A stretch of 21,858 nt of DNA from a virus: the IMG/VR virus record IMGVR_UViG_3300009164_000399, positions 1 through 21,858 of that record; one strand, 5' to 3'. Under the pieces are notes generated by a model that was given only the letters and a program-made list of their open reading frames with translations, searched no databases and was not told the DNA's origin. Below are positions 2,447-7,891 of the stretch, in pieces (position 1 is the first letter of the stretch; the number at the start of each line of letters is the position of its first letter). The position numbers and the translations under genes were made by a program.

Positions 2447-2632
2447 ATGAACCTTACCGAAATTCAACAACGTCTTGCTGATCGCCGCTTGCCCGTAGTG
2501 GCTGAGGCAACTGGGCTGTCTGTGTTCACGCTGTACCGGCTGCTCAACGGCAAGACCAAGCCGAGCAAGTCCACCATGCGAAGCATTGAGAACTATCTGC
2601 GCGACACCAGCACGGTGGCGGTCAATGAGTGA
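2447..2632 (+). CDS. Small helix-turn-helix DNA-binding protein (Cro/CI-like)
   Basis: A 61-residue protein. ADRRLPVVAEATGLSVFTLY (about residues 11-30) reads as a classic helix-turn-helix: a first helix with Ala in the turn-side position, a Gly turn and a recognition helix with SVFTLYRLLNG. KTKPSKSTMRSIENYL resembles the following helices of Cro/CI-type repressors. No dimerisation or cleavage domain is present, so it is Cro-sized. The start at 2447 lies about 27 bases after the expected transcription start and has no ribosome site. It probably binds the palindrome at 2404-2421 and regulates itself and the leftward operon. The gene overlaps the next by 8 bases. Confidence 0.7.
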   Translation: MNLTEIQQRLADRRLPVVAEATGLSVFTLYRLLNGKTKPSKSTMRSIENYLRDTSTVAVNE

Positions 2633-3473
2633 CCCGTTCAAGATAGACAGCCCTACTTGCATCAGCTTTAGCGGCGGGCGCACCAGCGCCTATATGTTGT
2701 GGCGCGTCCTCCAGAGCAATAGCGGGTTGCCAGACGAGGCGCAGGTGTGTTTTGCGAACACGGGCAAGGAAGATGAAGCGACGTTGCGGTTTGTTGACCG
2801 TTGTGCCCAAGAATGGGAAATTCCGATCACTTGGGTGGAATACATCAACGCTGATGAAACGAAGGATCGGTTTTGCGTTGTTGACTTTGAGACAGCCAGC
2901 AGGAACGGTGAACCGTTTGAGGCAATCATTCGCAAACGCAACTACCTTCCCAACCCTGTCAGTCGGTTCTGCACGGTGGAGCTGAAGGTCAGGGCCATTC
3001 ATCGTTATTTGAAAAGCATTGGATGGACTGAGTGGGAGTCCATGCTCGGCATCAGGGCCGATGAGCAGCGAAGGCTGGCAAAGATTGGTCAGCAAGACTA
3101 TGGCAAGCACGAAGAGAAGATTGCTCCACTTGGTCGAGTTGGGGTGACGAAGGAAATGGTAGGAGAGTTTTGGAGAGCCATGCCGTTTGATTTGGAGCTT
3201 CCAAACATGAACGGCGTGACCATGCACGGCAATTGCGATTTATGCTACTTGAAGGGAGGATCACAAATCTTTTCTCTCATTCAAGAAAAACCAGAACGTG
3301 CTGTTTGGTGGGCAAAAATGGAGGCGTTGGCGTTGGCGTTGGCGTCTAAGCCTGACGGTGCAAAGTTTCGTACCGACCGCCCCTCCTACGCCGCTATGTT
3401 GAAGTTCAGCAAAGAGCAACGCGATATGTTTGACAAAGACGAAGAAGCAATCAGTTGCTTTTGTGGAGATTGA
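2625..3473 (+). CDS. PAPS reductase-like PP-loop ATPase with cysteine cluster
   Basis: A 282-residue protein of the PAPS reductase / N-type ATP pyrophosphatase fold. The PP-loop SFSGGRTS lies at residues 14-21, and an LGIRADEQRR motif (141-150) matches the G-R-x-x-E-x-x-R region of the family. Cysteines 116 (RFCTVELK), 204 and 207 (GNCDLCYLKG) and 278/280 (CFCGD at the C-terminus) could hold an iron-sulfur or zinc centre. Such genes are common in phages, but their reaction is unclear; sulfur transfer to nucleic acid or a metabolite is as likely as sulfate reduction. The ATG at 2625 overlaps the end of the helix-turn-helix gene by 8 bases; an in-frame ATG at 2586 is too far inside that gene to be likely. 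Confidence 0.82.
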   Translation: MSDPFKIDSPTCISFSGGRTSAYMLWRVLQSNSGLPDEAQVCFANTGKEDEATLRFVDRCAQEWEIPITWVEYINADETKDRFCVVDFETASRNGEPFEAIIRKRNYLPNPVSRFCTVELKVRAIHRYLKSIGWTEWESMLGIRADEQRRLAKIGQQDYGKHEEKIAPLGRVGVTKEMVGEFWRAMPFDLELPNMNGVTMHGNCDLCYLKGGSQIFSLIQEKPERAVWWAKMEALALALASKPDGAKFRTDRPSYAAMLKFSKEQRDMFDKDEEAISCFCGD

Positions 3474-3476
3474 TGA

Positions 3477-5513
3477 ATGGCTAATCTGGTTCACATTTTT
3501 GGCGGCTCATGGTCGCCGCCTCCCGTGCCGGTGCTGGCCTCGCCAGAGCAGCAATTTGAGAACGCTTTGCGCGATGCTGGTTTGGACTTGCCCGACAAGC
3601 CCATTGAGTTTGACGGCAAGATGCACCGCTTCAAAAGCGGCACGAAAGGCACGCCTGGCTACGACAAATCGGGCTGGTACATCATTTTTGGCAATGGCAT
3701 TCCAGCCGGTCAGTTTGGGTGCTGGCGCTCTGGCATCGTTGCCAATTGGCGGGCTGAAGTCAGCAGGCAGATCAGTCCAGCAGATGAGATGGCGTTTGCT
3801 CGTCGCATGGCCGAAGCCAAGGCCGCACGCGAGATTGAGCAGGCCCGCAAGCACGAGGTGGCTGCGGATGTGGTTGACACCATCTGGAGCGACTGCATAG
3901 GTGCCTCGCCAGATCACCCGTATCTCAAGCGCAAGGGCATCGCGCCCCACGGAGCCAGAGTCACAGGCGATGGGCGGCTGGTGGTGCCTTTGTACGATCA
4001 GGATGGCACCTTGGCATCTTTGCAGTACATCGACAGCGAAGGCGGCAAGCTATACCACCCAGGCGGGCAGACGGGCGGCAAGTTCTGGGTGTTGGGGTCA
4101 ATGGACGAGCCTGGCAGCATCTACGTTGCCGAAGGCTTTGCCACCGCCGCCACGATCCATCAGGTCACCTCAAGGCCGGTTGTCGTTGCATATTCAGCGT
4201 CCAACCTTGTGCCGGTGACCGCAATCATGCGCGGCTTGCACCCAACCAGCGATTTGGTGATTGTGGCCGACCATGACAAAAGCGGAGTTGGCCAGCGGTA
4301 CGCAGAGCAAGCCTGCGCGAAGCACGGCGCACGCATGGTGATGCCGCCAGATGAAGGCGATGCGAACGATTACGCGCAGGCAGGCGGGGATTTGTTGGCG
4401 TTGTTGACGCAAGAAACTGGCACGGCAGTCTTTGACAAGTTGCAAGTGGTCTTTGGTGACCAGTTGAGCGCCGAGTACGAAGCGCCAAACGAGTTAGTTG
4501 AAGGACTGATGACCATTGGCAGCTCGGTGGTGGTCTATGGCGATAGCAATAGCGGAAAGACATTTTGGGCACTTTCAGTTGCCACCGCCATTGCAACCGG
4601 CACGTTGTGCTACGGACGCAAGACCGACCCAGGCTTAGTTATTTATTTGGCCTGCGAAGCCCCAGCCAGCATTCGTGCGCGTATGCAAGCCATCAAGAAG
4701 TTCCACGGTTGCAATCTTGAGAACTTGGCAATGGTGCCCGTGCCCATGAATTTCTACACCGGCGATCAAGACGCCTACGATGTGATTGAGTTGGTGCGAT
4801 CCATTGAGCAAATGAAGGGCAAGCCCGTGCGTCTCATCATTGGCGACACCTTGGCACGCATGAGCGCAGGCGCGAATGAGAACAGCGGCGAAGACATGGG
4901 GCCGGTTATGGCGCGTTTTGACCAAGTAGCCACCGCCACCAAAGCTGCTCTGATGATGATTCACCACAACGGCAAAGACGTAGCCAAGGGCGCTCGCGGC
5001 TGGTCAGGCATCCGCGCACATATTGACACCGAGATTGAGGTGATTGAAAAGGACGGCATTCGCATGGTAAACGTGACCAAGCAACGTGAGTTGCCAAGCA
5101 AGGGCGAAACGATCTACTTTAAGCTGGAAGTGGTGGAGATGGGGGTGTCTAAGTTTGGCAATCCCGCAACAACTTGCGTTGCCATTCCAGACGATGAATC
5201 TACTAATAATCAATCAAATAAAAAACCATCAAAACATGATGAAAATGTCAGAATGGTTGAGCGTGCTTGGTGGGCATCTGGTACACAGGAGCGCAGAGGG
5301 TTACCTTATTTGAGCAGGGATGGATTGAGAGATTTGCTTATTAAAGATGGTATGGCAGAGAGAACTGCTAGAAATAAAATGGATGCTTCTAGGCCAGATG
5401 GGATCATTGCACAATTGCTTAATGCAGGAACTTTGGAGTCATGCGATGGGGGATGGTTGTTTGTCAATGAGGTGCAGTTGAGCGTGATGTTGATGCAAAA
5501 GAACGAAAAATGA
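3477..5513 (+). CDS. Toprim primase / RepA-like helicase fusion
   Basis: A 678-residue replication protein. Residues 160-310 carry a Toprim primase domain: VAEGFATAATIH with Glu219, VIVADHDKSG with Asp265 and Asp267, and GDANDYAQ near 294-301. No clear zinc-finger set is seen at the N-terminus. Residues 340-560 form a RecA/RepA-type ATPase: Walker A YGDSNSGKT at 354-362, Walker B LIIGD with Asp457, and an MMIHHNGKD motif near 493-501. The last 100 residues look like a separate winged-helix-like tail. The start at 3477 has GGAG 9 bases upstream and lies 4 bases after the preceding stop. It probably unwinds DNA and primes synthesis at the phage origin. DNA coding for the last 100 residues is visibly AT-richer than the rest. 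Confidence 0.88.
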   Translation: MANLVHIFGGSWSPPPVPVLASPEQQFENALRDAGLDLPDKPIEFDGKMHRFKSGTKGTPGYDKSGWYIIFGNGIPAGQFGCWRSGIVANWRAEVSRQISPADEMAFARRMAEAKAAREIEQARKHEVAADVVDTIWSDCIGASPDHPYLKRKGIAPHGARVTGDGRLVVPLYDQDGTLASLQYIDSEGGKLYHPGGQTGGKFWVLGSMDEPGSIYVAEGFATAATIHQVTSRPVVVAYSASNLVPVTAIMRGLHPTSDLVIVADHDKSGVGQRYAEQACAKHGARMVMPPDEGDANDYAQAGGDLLALLTQETGTAVFDKLQVVFGDQLSAEYEAPNELVEGLMTIGSSVVVYGDSNSGKTFWALSVATAIATGTLCYGRKTDPGLVIYLACEAPASIRARMQAIKKFHGCNLENLAMVPVPMNFYTGDQDAYDVIELVRSIEQMKGKPVRLIIGDTLARMSAGANENSGEDMGPVMARFDQVATATKAALMMIHHNGKDVAKGARGWSGIRAHIDTEIEVIEKDGIRMVNVTKQRELPSKGETIYFKLEVVEMGVSKFGNPATTCVAIPDDESTNNQSNKKPSKHDENVRMVERAWWASGTQERRGLPYLSRDGLRDLLIKDGMAERTARNKMDASRPDGIIAQLLNAGTLESCDGGWLFVNEVQLSVMLMQKNEK

Positions 5514-5539
5514 GTTTACAAAAAGTCAAGAATTGTTGC

Positions 5540-5588
5540 GCCCCTAATGCCCCTAAACGCCCCTAGGGGCACTCAGGGGCACAGGGGC
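5540..5588. repeat. Three GCCCCT then three AGGGGC hexamers, mirrored
   Basis: GCCCCT occurs at 5540, 5549 and 5559, followed by AGGGGC at 5565, 5575 and 5583. The centre, 5559-5570, is a perfect 12-bp palindrome. Spacers are 3, 4, 0, 4 and 2 bases. The array can form a cruciform or serve as an iteron-like binding array. More copies, GCCCCT at 5605 and 5618 and AGGGGC at 5663, lie in the adjoining hairpin. Confidence 0.85.
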
Positions 5589-5601
5589 AAAGGCGTTGGA
5601 A

Positions 5602-5671
5602 TGTGCCCCTAAACCCCGCCCCTCTCCTACCCCCTTTTAGGCAGGGGTAGGGGAGGTAGGGGAGGGGCACA
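5602..5671. repeat. 70-bp GC-rich hairpin with G-quadruplex motifs on both strands
   Basis: Outer arms TGTGCCCCT (5602-5610) and AGGGGCACA (5663-5671) are perfect. An inner stem pairs 5621-5633 with 5644-5656 over 13 bp with one G-T pair. The plus strand has four GGGG tracts (5644, 5650, 5659, 5664) with loops of 2, 5 and 1 bases. The minus strand has four tracts of at least four G (opposite 5606, 5614, 5619, 5630) with loops of 4, 1 and 7. No T-run follows directly, so a simple intrinsic terminator is unlikely. Confidence 0.8.
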
Positions 5672-5699
5672 AGACGATGCGAAAATTTTTGGGTAAGGC

Positions 5700-5729
5700 T
5701 TGTTGTTGTTGTCCCTATAGGGGTATGAT
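5700..5729 (+). promoter_or_regulatory. Candidate promoter for the AT-rich orphan gene
   Basis: TTGTTG (5700-5705), an 18-base spacer and TATGAT (5724-5729). The -10 box matches the consensus at five of six positions, while the -35 box is weak. It points at the gene starting at 5758, which has its own ribosome site. Confidence 0.45.
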
Positions 5730-5744
5730 GTGGAACCTATAGGG
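5713..5744. promoter_or_regulatory. Paired CCTATAGG palindromes, candidate operators
   Basis: CCCTATAGGG at 5713-5722 and CCTATAGGG at 5736-5744 share the palindrome CCTATAGG with centres 22 bp apart, about two helical turns. They bracket the -10 box of the candidate promoter. This is the usual geometry for two dimers of a repressor binding the same face of DNA. Confidence 0.5.
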
Positions 5745-5757
5745 CACAGGAGCGAAC

Positions 5758-6039
5758 ATGAAAACGTATGAAGGCAGAATTCCAGATAAAGCTGAAGGCT
5801 GGCGGGTTAAAGCACAGGTCAAGGACGGCGATCAAAAATGGTTTTTGTTTGAAAAAATGCAAGCACATTCTGATGAATGGGCAACTTATAAAGTTGTTGC
5901 TGATGGCAGAGTTGAACAAAAAGCTAATTATTGGTTGGTGAAAAATATTAAAACAGGCCAGCAGGTATATCCTGCTGATATGGAGTTAATGAAACAATAT
6001 AGGTTAAATTTGTTTCAAAAAATTAAAGCCTTTATATGA
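5758..6039 (+). CDS. Hypothetical AT-rich orphan protein (93 aa)
   Basis: Not recognised. The 93-residue product starts MKTYEGRIPDKAEGWRVKAQ and is rich in Lys, Trp and Tyr, with short alternating segments that suggest a small beta-rich fold (WFLFEKMQ, WATYKVV, NYWLVKN) and a C-terminal helix ending LFQKIKAFI. An AGGAG ribosome site lies 5 bases before the ATG. The DNA is clearly AT-richer than the packaging genes, and the gene has its own promoter-like signals. It sits between the structured region and the terminase genes like a moron, a gene added later with its own control. It could be a regulator or a host-takeover protein. Confidence 0.65.
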   Translation: MKTYEGRIPDKAEGWRVKAQVKDGDQKWFLFEKMQAHSDEWATYKVVADGRVEQKANYWLVKNIKTGQQVYPADMELMKQYRLNLFQKIKAFI

Positions 6040-6069: not shown

Positions 6070-6255
6070 ATGACATACACTCTGCCCATGCCATACACCA
6101 AGCAACAGAACCGACTCTTTCAAGCCGCAGCTCATGACCCCGCTGTGGCCAAGCGAGTTGGTATTCCGCAAGACAAGGCCAGGCAGATGGCCAGCGAAGG
6201 GGTCAAGCACAAGCCGCAAGCGTTGGCGGCTGCGTTGATGCGGGGCAAGCCGTGA
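6070..6255 (+). CDS. Small conserved-looking phage protein upstream of terminase (61 aa)
   Basis: A 61-residue basic protein, MTYTLPMPYTKQQNRLFQAA at the start, then a segment with GIPQDKARQMASEGVKHKP. I recall short proteins with this PYTKxQ and KARxMASEG pattern near terminase genes in other phages, but I cannot give a function. The stop overlaps the GTG start of the next gene by 4 bases. No ribosome site is visible before the ATG at 6070, and the in-frame ATG at 6088 is no better, so the start is uncertain. Confidence 0.65.
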   Translation: MTYTLPMPYTKQQNRLFQAAAHDPAVAKRVGIPQDKARQMASEGVKHKPQALAAALMRGKP

Positions 6256-6569: not shown

Positions 6570-7891
6570 TAGTGCCGTACGCGCCCAGGCGGGCGTTTGC
6601 GGCCTTCCATGATCGTCGGGCTAGGTGGGCCTGCCTTGTGGCTCACAGACGCGCTGGGAAGACTGTGGCGTGCATTAACGATCTTATCCGCAGATCATTC
6701 ACCGACAACAAGACGGATGGCCGTTACGCCTACATCGCGCCGTTCTACAGCCAGGCGAAGAGCATCAGTTGGGACTACCTGCTGCGTTATACCGCAGACG
6801 TTCGTACTCAGGCGAATGCGTCAGAGCTTTGGGTGGAGCTGCTCAATGGGGCACGCATTAGGCTTTTTGGAGCAGATAACCCAGATGCCTTGCGAGGTTT
6901 GTACCTCGACGGCGTGGTGTTGGACGAGGTGGCCGACATGAGACCAAGGGTCTGGGGCGAGATCATCCGACCGCTGCTGGCCGACCGCGAAGGCTGGGCT
7001 TCGTTCATTGGCACACCAAAGGGGCACAACTTCTTCCACGCCATCTGGACGCAGGCCCAAGGCTCGCCCGATTGGTACTCGACCAGCATCAAGGCGAGTC
7101 AATCCGGCCTGATCAAGCCCGACGAGTTGGCCGACGCCAGCCGAGGCATGACTGAGGATCAGTACCAACAAGAATTTGAATGCAGCTTTGAGGCTGCAAT
7201 CTTGGGTGCGTATTACGGGCGTGAGCTGCGGGCCATTGAGGACGAGGGGCGCGTGACCGTTGTGGATTACGACCGCAACCTGCCCGTTTTCACCGCTTGG
7301 GACTTGGGTTTCCACGATGACACGGCTATCTGGTTCTGGCAAATGTCTGGCGGCGAGCTGCGAATCATCGACTACTACTCGGCCAGCGGCTTAACCATTG
7401 ACGACTATGCCAACGTGGTGATTGGCAAAGCGTATCGCTATGCAACACACTACCTGCCCCACGACGCACGGGCCAAGACGCTGGCATCAGGCGGCAAGTC
7501 CATCATTGAGCAACTAGACGCTCACCTTGGCATTAAGAACATGGCCATCGTGCCTAGCCTAAGCGTGCAGGACGGCATCCAGGCAGCGCGGGTGATGATG
7601 CGTCGCGTGTGGTTTGACCGCGAACGCTGCGGCGAAGGCGTGGAACTGCTCAAGCAGTATCAGCGCGAGTGGGACGACGAAAAGAAAATGTTTAGAGAGA
7701 AGCCACGGCATGACTTCACCAGCCATTGCGCTGACGCTTTTCGCATGATGGCCATTGCTTGGGCAGAAATTAAGCCAAAAGAACCCGAAAAACCGCCAGT
7801 TTTTGCTGTAACGGGGCATAATTCGCGCATTGAGCTTGCCCCACTTGAAACTTTGTGGCGCGAGACACCGAGGCGATCAAACAGAATCTAG
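6545..7891 (+). CDS. terL: Terminase large subunit (packaging ATPase/nuclease)
   Basis: A 448-residue DNA packaging motor. ATPase part: Walker A AHRRAGKT at residues 33-40, Walker B VVLDE at 124-128 with the catalytic Glu128, and the coupling motif FIGTPKG at 154-160. Nuclease part: TAWDLGFHDDTA from residue 250, with Asp253 as likely metal ligand, and a C-terminal HCADAFRMM with Asp397. It docks on the portal, pumps DNA into the prohead and cuts it. The ATG at 6545 lies within the end of the small subunit gene; no strong ribosome site is seen, so translation may depend on the upstream gene. The stop overlaps the ribosome site of the next gene. Confidence 0.93.
   Translation: MAATERRIVVPYAPRRAFAAFHDRRARWACLVAHRRAGKTVACINDLIRRSFTDNKTDGRYAYIAPFYSQAKSISWDYLLRYTADVRTQANASELWVELLNGARIRLFGADNPDALRGLYLDGVVLDEVADMRPRVWGEIIRPLLADREGWASFIGTPKGHNFFHAIWTQAQGSPDWYSTSIKASQSGLIKPDELADASRGMTEDQYQQEFECSFEAAILGAYYGRELRAIEDEGRVTVVDYDRNLPVFTAWDLGFHDDTAIWFWQMSGGELRIIDYYSASGLTIDDYANVVIGKAYRYATHYLPHDARAKTLASGGKSIIEQLDAHLGIKNMAIVPSLSVQDGIQAARVMMRRVWFDRERCGEGVELLKQYQREWDDEKKMFREKPRHDFTSHCADAFRMMAIAWAEIKPKEPEKPPVFAVTGHNSRIELAPLETLWRETPRRSNRI

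Follow-up and report, generated by a model that had tools for sequence, protein, structure and literature searches.

The DNA at positions 5540 to 5671 of an IMG/VR virus record, 3' of a primase-helicase gene, is very probably a phage replication origin, and its repeated hexamers would be iterons bound by the winged-helix C-terminal domain (CTD) of the protein encoded upstream. The window, that is, the whole stretch of DNA that we analyzed, is the complete 21,858-bp record. An earlier note had proposed a structured origin at this position, and the proposal received strong comparative support from iterons matched to the CTD, covarying stems, and DnaA boxes. Additionally, the element followed the replication gene and not its neighbors.

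Layout of the element and its gene neighborhood

The features of the window that bear on this reading are as follows.

2447 to 2632, plus strand: Cro-like helix-turn-helix (HTH) gene, upstream; ruled out as the reader of the hexamers
3477 to 5513, plus strand: primase-helicase gene, encoding a TOPRIM domain (residues 215 to 304), an RSF1010 RepA-like AAA_25 helicase (residues 323 to 501), and the C-terminal winged-helix domain
5232 to 5504, plus strand: the CTD (residues 586 to 676), putative reader of the hexamers, with its recognition helix at about residues 628 to 635 (ERTARNKM)
5540 to 5588, no strand assigned: left iteron array, three GCCCCT (5540, 5549, and 5559) and then three AGGGGC (5565, 5575, and 5583) around the palindrome GCCCCTAGGGGC
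5583 to 5591, plus strand: AGGGGCAAA, the last hexamer of the array fused to a GGGGC(AAA) motif, which is found before the hairpin in most lineages, irrespective of hexamer type
5593 to 5680, no strand assigned: hairpin with outer stem, carrying arm iterons (GCCCCT at 5605 and 5618, AGGGGC at 5663); its stems covary in relatives
5606 to 5667, no strand assigned: potential G-quadruplex tracts (both strands), a by-product of the GGGG that hexamers and hairpin tip contain; the family as a whole does not conserve them
5676 to 5681, plus strand: GATGCG motif directly 3' of the hairpin; most lineages have a similar motif there (GATGCGG/CGCGGGG)
5758 to 6039, plus strand: downstream open reading frame (ORF), function unassigned; missing beside many elements with the same hexamer type

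All of the features that had been claimed for the element were found in its letters, namely, the nine hexamers, the palindrome of 12 bp, and the hairpin of 70 bp. Multiple short repeats thus adjoin the presumed initiator gene, as in iteron origins, with 9 copies of GCCCCT/AGGGGC per 132 bp at the element and 16 in the entire window, whereas 300 first-order Markov shuffles of the window never placed more than 3 within any 132 bp. The palindrome at 5559 to 5570 is perfect. The arrangement of the first six hexamers as three and three also held, but their order, which had been called mirror, is inverted (palindromic) and not that of a mirror repeat. The hairpin contains the expected 9-bp stem (5602 to 5610 with 5663 to 5671), which pairs perfectly, and the 13-bp stem (5621 to 5633 with 5644 to 5656), in which 12 of 13 pairs are Watson-Crick, and an outer stem lengthens it to approximately 5593 to 5680. 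The predicted folding of the element was stronger than that of 200 dinucleotide shuffles (z of -4.9 as DNA and -6.4 as RNA), and no known RNA family in Rfam was matched in the window.

The encoded protein matched Toprim_3 and AAA_25/RepA rather than the archaeo-eukaryotic primase (AEP) and SF3 helicase of pRN1-type origins, and a profile built from 16 relatives aligned residues 344 to 508 with RSF1010 RepA (1g8y) at an E value of 5.8e-11. Because the full-length AlphaFold model was poor (pLDDT of 62), we used a model of the CTD alone, in which the last 104 residues were folded as a winged helix (pLDDT of 88.5). The CTD sequence matched no solved domain, and a fold search of the PDB with the CTD model gave no significant match (best E value of 0.03); the matches were mostly winged-helix proteins, none of them close.

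The order of a Sak4-type gene, HTH gene, primase-helicase gene, and intergenic element is common to Salicola phage CGphi29, Alteromonas phages PB15 and XX1924, and Idiomarinaceae phage 1N2-2, and in the window the Sak4-like gene lies upstream of the primase-helicase in divergent orientation. The record also encodes a terminase and many late-type ORFs, and its isolated relatives have portal and head genes. Other observations concern the flanks of the element. A PAPS reductase-like gene occupies positions 2586 to 3473, between the HTH and primase-helicase genes; it is missing there in L008, L009, L039, and other loci and thus looks like the occupant of a mobile cargo position. A TIGR-Tas link has been mentioned for Salicola phage CGphi29. 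Downstream of the element, two CCTATAGG palindromes (5714 to 5721 and 5736 to 5743), which occur nowhere else in the window, lie on either side of a possible -10 sequence (TATGAT) before the ORF at 5758 to 6039. The pair is kept in L020 to L024 and L035, with a similar pair in the Salicola phage locus L063 near 7318 to 7362, and is possibly an operator pair.

Conservation of the layout and covariation of the hairpin

The primase-helicase is encoded in 60 viral loci, and nearly all of those that reach far enough carry a similar element 3' of the stop codon. The shared layout consists of a hexamer array in two orientations, GGGGC(AAA), a hairpin with hexamers in its arms, and then GATGCGG or a similar motif; the left array is conserved in 52 distinct relatives. 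A pattern scan found more GCCCCT elements, almost all of them 3' of a primase-helicase of the window's type, and the same layout with differing hexamers followed the gene in approximately 100 nonredundant loci, which are mostly fragments of uncultured viruses. Most of the other relatives had 5 to 13 copies of their own hexamer, and divergent ones carried GGGAAC, GGGGAC(A), GGTTCA, or GGTACA at the corresponding positions. At least 18 hexamer types were distinguished (for example, GCCCCT, GGGAAC, CGTAAC, GGTAAC, GGTACA, GGTTCA, and CTAACA); with 145 further loci included, single linkage of the hexamer spectra gave 19 clusters, of which one (L324) is spurious and the large one merges types that are related (AGGGGA and ACCCCC, for example).

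The element lies approximately 200 to 300 bp further downstream in L089/L116 and L155/L184, yet it is kept. Because the gene that follows it is variable, we group the element with the replication gene. In one Salicola-side subclade (L233 to L235, L238, L239, L241 to L243, L251 to L254, L257, L260, L261, L264, L266, and L270 to L272), the primase-helicase is retained, but the gene is followed neither by a hairpin nor, within 2 kb, by a hexamer array. The CTD of this subclade is altered and ends in HENGWIVIDPGTASGMMLKK, and its origin must be elsewhere or differently built. A scan of bacterial genomes confirmed no prophage relatives, and plasmid matches covered at most 60% of the query.

The hairpin stems covary in relatives, a check that had been named beforehand: 86 cells were changed on both sides of a pair, compared with 26 in shuffles. 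Among 52 distinct class-1 elements the covariation score was 0.207 versus 0.058 in shuffles (reached in 0 of 500), and standard pairs made up 93.8% of the hairpin cells, compared with 33 to 55% when the structure was slid along the alignment. The outer stem, free of hexamers, had 41 double changes and not a single one-sided change. A lack of G-T intermediates would fit pairing in DNA and not in RNA alone. Across 106 elements the median folding z was -4.9 against mononucleotide shuffles. We rejected the free RNAalifold consensus of the entire element, in which left-array hexamers paired with the arms of the hairpin; unlike the named hairpin, this consensus had almost no covariation.

Two further observations were made on the hairpins. 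Their loops are often CTTTAG or CTATAG/GTATAC in many loci with any hexamer type, and such a recurrent loop could be either a start site for the primase or a loop that is stable in DNA. The long hairpin subtype with a C4/G4 tip tracks the downstream gene of the ORF 5758 type, while the left array tracks the primase clade (L020, L021, L023, L024, L035, L045, L028, L029, and L043 versus L016 and L018), a pattern that suggests another recombination breakpoint, located within the element 3' of AGGGGCAAA.

Correspondence between the hexamer and the C-terminal domain

Natural chimeras separated the parts of the protein. The proteins of L038 and L039 were 95 to 99% identical to that of the window over residues 1 to 310 and approximately 20 to 45% identical in the helicase and CTD, and their hexamer is GGGAAC, not GCCCCT. 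At the DNA level, the window and L038 lose their similarity at 4410 and regain it at 6070; since the primase halves of the window, L038, L039, and L051 are nearly identical and are joined to different helicase halves, we place a recombination junction near residue 311 (4403 to 4410). L328 and L326 were 95 to 100% identical over most of residues 1 to 560 and 12 to 40% thereafter, with hexamers CTAACA and ACCCCC, respectively. The differences between L207 and L209, and other 90%-identical relatives, lie mainly in the CTD, and the hexamers are CGTAAC versus GGGAAC. The reverse combination was found in L310: its helicase was only 18 to 38% identical to the window type (mostly 70 to 85% to the Idiomarina type), its CTD blocks were 33 to 80% identical to window-type proteins, and its hexamer is GCCCCT.

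The same pattern appeared when all loci were compared. Pairs of loci with helicases 70 to 90% identical and CTDs less than 30% identical shared a hexamer in 1% of cases, and pairs with helicases less than 30% and CTDs 50 to 70% identical shared it in 76%, a figure in which many comparisons involve the single locus L310. In a partial Mantel analysis of 106 nonredundant loci, the association of hexamer with CTD given the helicase was 0.41 (reached in 0 of 500 permutations, maximum of 0.15) and the reverse value was 0.17 (permutation maximum of 0.14); because the sequences are related, these measures are descriptive and the permutation counts are not strict probabilities. Residue by residue, the association with the hexamer averaged -0.02 for helicase positions and approximately 0.08 to 0.12 for CTD segments, and R639, N633, and R629, in the region of the recognition helix, were among the best-associated residues.

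Two other candidate readers were rejected. The Cro-like HTH protein is 95% identical to that of the window in L038, L039, L050, and L051 despite their changed hexamer, and it is only 35 to 43% identical in many loci that still carry GCCCCT. Similarly, the ORF at 5758 to 6039 is missing beside many GCCCCT elements. Thus, with the one protein varying and the other missing at an unchanged hexamer, neither determines it. From these comparisons (chimeras, partial Mantel analysis, and the two-way table of locus pairs) we infer that the hexamers are matched to the DNA-binding domain of the initiator and that their reader is the CTD of the primase-helicase. Repeat and CTD appear to be matched like lock and key within each lineage, and the CTD and its cognate iterons behave as a cassette swapped between phages of the window's family.

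Proposed origin function, alternatives, and related systems

Two other signals of an origin were looked for in the loci. The DnaA-box consensus TTATCCACA was 28-fold denser in the approximately 350 bp around and after the stop codon than elsewhere in the loci; it was present in 16 of the 106 loci, with at least four hexamer types, mostly 128 to 140 bp after the stop, and absent from the window. GC skew, which the earlier note had proposed as a check, was ambiguous: in 7 of 10 long relatives its cumulative curve reached the minimum where the primase gene begins or within approximately 2 kb upstream, but this position coincides with divergent transcription, which confounds the signal. In the mechanism that we envisage, the CTD would bind the left array and the iterons in the hairpin arms and a RepA-type ring helicase would assemble there. 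The inverted repeat would open or be extruded, as a cruciform or single-stranded hairpin, to provide the site of unwinding or priming; the TOPRIM domain would lay primers, and host DnaA may help in some lineages.

We consider it unlikely that the element serves transcriptional control instead, with the CTD repressing or activating from the hexamers around the boundary of early and late genes or with the hairpin acting as a terminator. The element does sit between the replication gene and the late genes, and in the window's subtype it precedes the possible -10 sequence flanked by CCTATAGG; a CTD that bound there for autoregulation would likewise tie the hexamer to the CTD. However, a search of 5400 to 5800 revealed no terminator- or promoter-like site, the downstream gene is not conserved, the element is kept despite extra DNA before it (L089, L155, and L184), and DnaA boxes cluster there. 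The earlier suggestion of an early/late control element may still hold for a side function.

A switch between G-quadruplex and cruciform, in which the G tracts themselves would be functional, is very improbable. As had been described, the plus strand of the window holds the tracts GGGGTAGGGGAGGTAGGGGAGGGG (loops of 2, 5, and 1) and the minus strand four tracts with loops of 4, 1, and 7; the window contains no others of this kind, and four-tract motifs also occur in some class-1 elements. However, even at G3 a four-tract motif was absent from 22 of the 41 elements of class 1 and from 47 of the other 65 (69 of 106 overall), and lineages with the G-tract-free hexamers GGTACA, CGTAAC, and CTAACA keep the layout unchanged. 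The tracts in the window are explained by the GGGG of its lineage's hexamer and by the C4/G4 hairpin tip. Thus, with the motif missing from about two-thirds of the elements, the tracts proved not to be conserved and the proposed fold switch was not supported.

A packaging (cos/pac) or recombination site is even less probable: terminase genes lie within approximately 1 to 2 kb beyond the element in the window and Salicola phage CGphi29, and module breakpoints fall close to it, but the genes annotated downstream of it in Alteromonas phages PB15 and XX1924 are small and hypothetical rather than terminase genes, and the repeats track the CTD, with L038 and the window differing in hexamer while their TerL proteins are 96% identical.

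If the element is an origin, this widespread phage group may carry CTD and iterons as a swapped, fast-diversifying cassette of at least 18 types that defines replication incompatibility groups, with the diversity driven by origin theft, decoys, or competition from coinfecting phages or satellites; we offer this idea only tentatively. Ectopic lambda origins arrest lambda (PMC4488673), and for geminiviruses, the reason why the iterons of close relatives diversify has been stated as an open question (PMC12548392). The hexamer/DNA-binding domain pairs and clean chimeras amount to a natural library from which a winged-helix recognition code should be workable and which could be used to test whether matched origins cause interference between phages. 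Probable origins can now be proposed for many uncultured phages.

The proposed origin would work like those of PICIs, pRN1, and RSF1010 but with a different protein architecture. PICIs provide an experimental precedent, since their origin lies directly 3' of the primase/initiator gene; their pri-rep-ori modules have a primase and an initiator, sometimes fused, two iteron sets, and several allelic variants (PMC6092414). The window likewise has two iteron sets after the stop codon, in the left array and the hairpin arms. In contrast to PICIs, its protein combines TOPRIM, an RSF1010 RepA-type helicase, and a winged helix, its hexamers are both direct and inverted with the second set in covarying hairpin arms, and the element is carried by phages and not by helper-dependent satellite islands. 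As in pRN1 and phage BIP-1, a long stem-loop lies 3' of the primase-helicase gene with structure kept over sequence, and the stem-loop origin of pRN1, which has a winged-helix primase-helicase, was shown to be essential for replication (PMC4234260). Unlike the window, with its TOPRIM domain, RepA-type helicase, and iterons, pRN1 has an archaeo-eukaryotic primase, an SF3 helicase, and no iterons.

The oriV of RSF1010 (IncQ), with RepA, RepB', RepC, and ssiA/ssiB, combines iterons with hairpin priming sites (PMC4234260, PMC4538821), and its helicase RepA (1g8y) is homologous to that of the window. RSF1010 uses three proteins with an AEP primase, whereas in the window one polypeptide combines the helicase with a different primase and the probable binder of the iterons, a single-protein counterpart to the three-protein replicon.

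The helicase of phage P4 alpha is of the SF3 type, and that of the window differs in being AAA_25 and RepA-like, not SF3/D5. As proposed here, P4 alpha (ori/crr) has a TOPRIM primase, a helicase, and a C-terminal winged-helix origin binder that acts on repeats (PMC4234260). Initiator specificity and iterons also covary among relatives for the lambdoid O protein and geminivirus Rep (PMC8022706, PMC12548392), as they appear to do here, but those proteins are unrelated to that of the window, and the iterons lie inside the O gene in lambda and upstream of Rep in geminiviruses.
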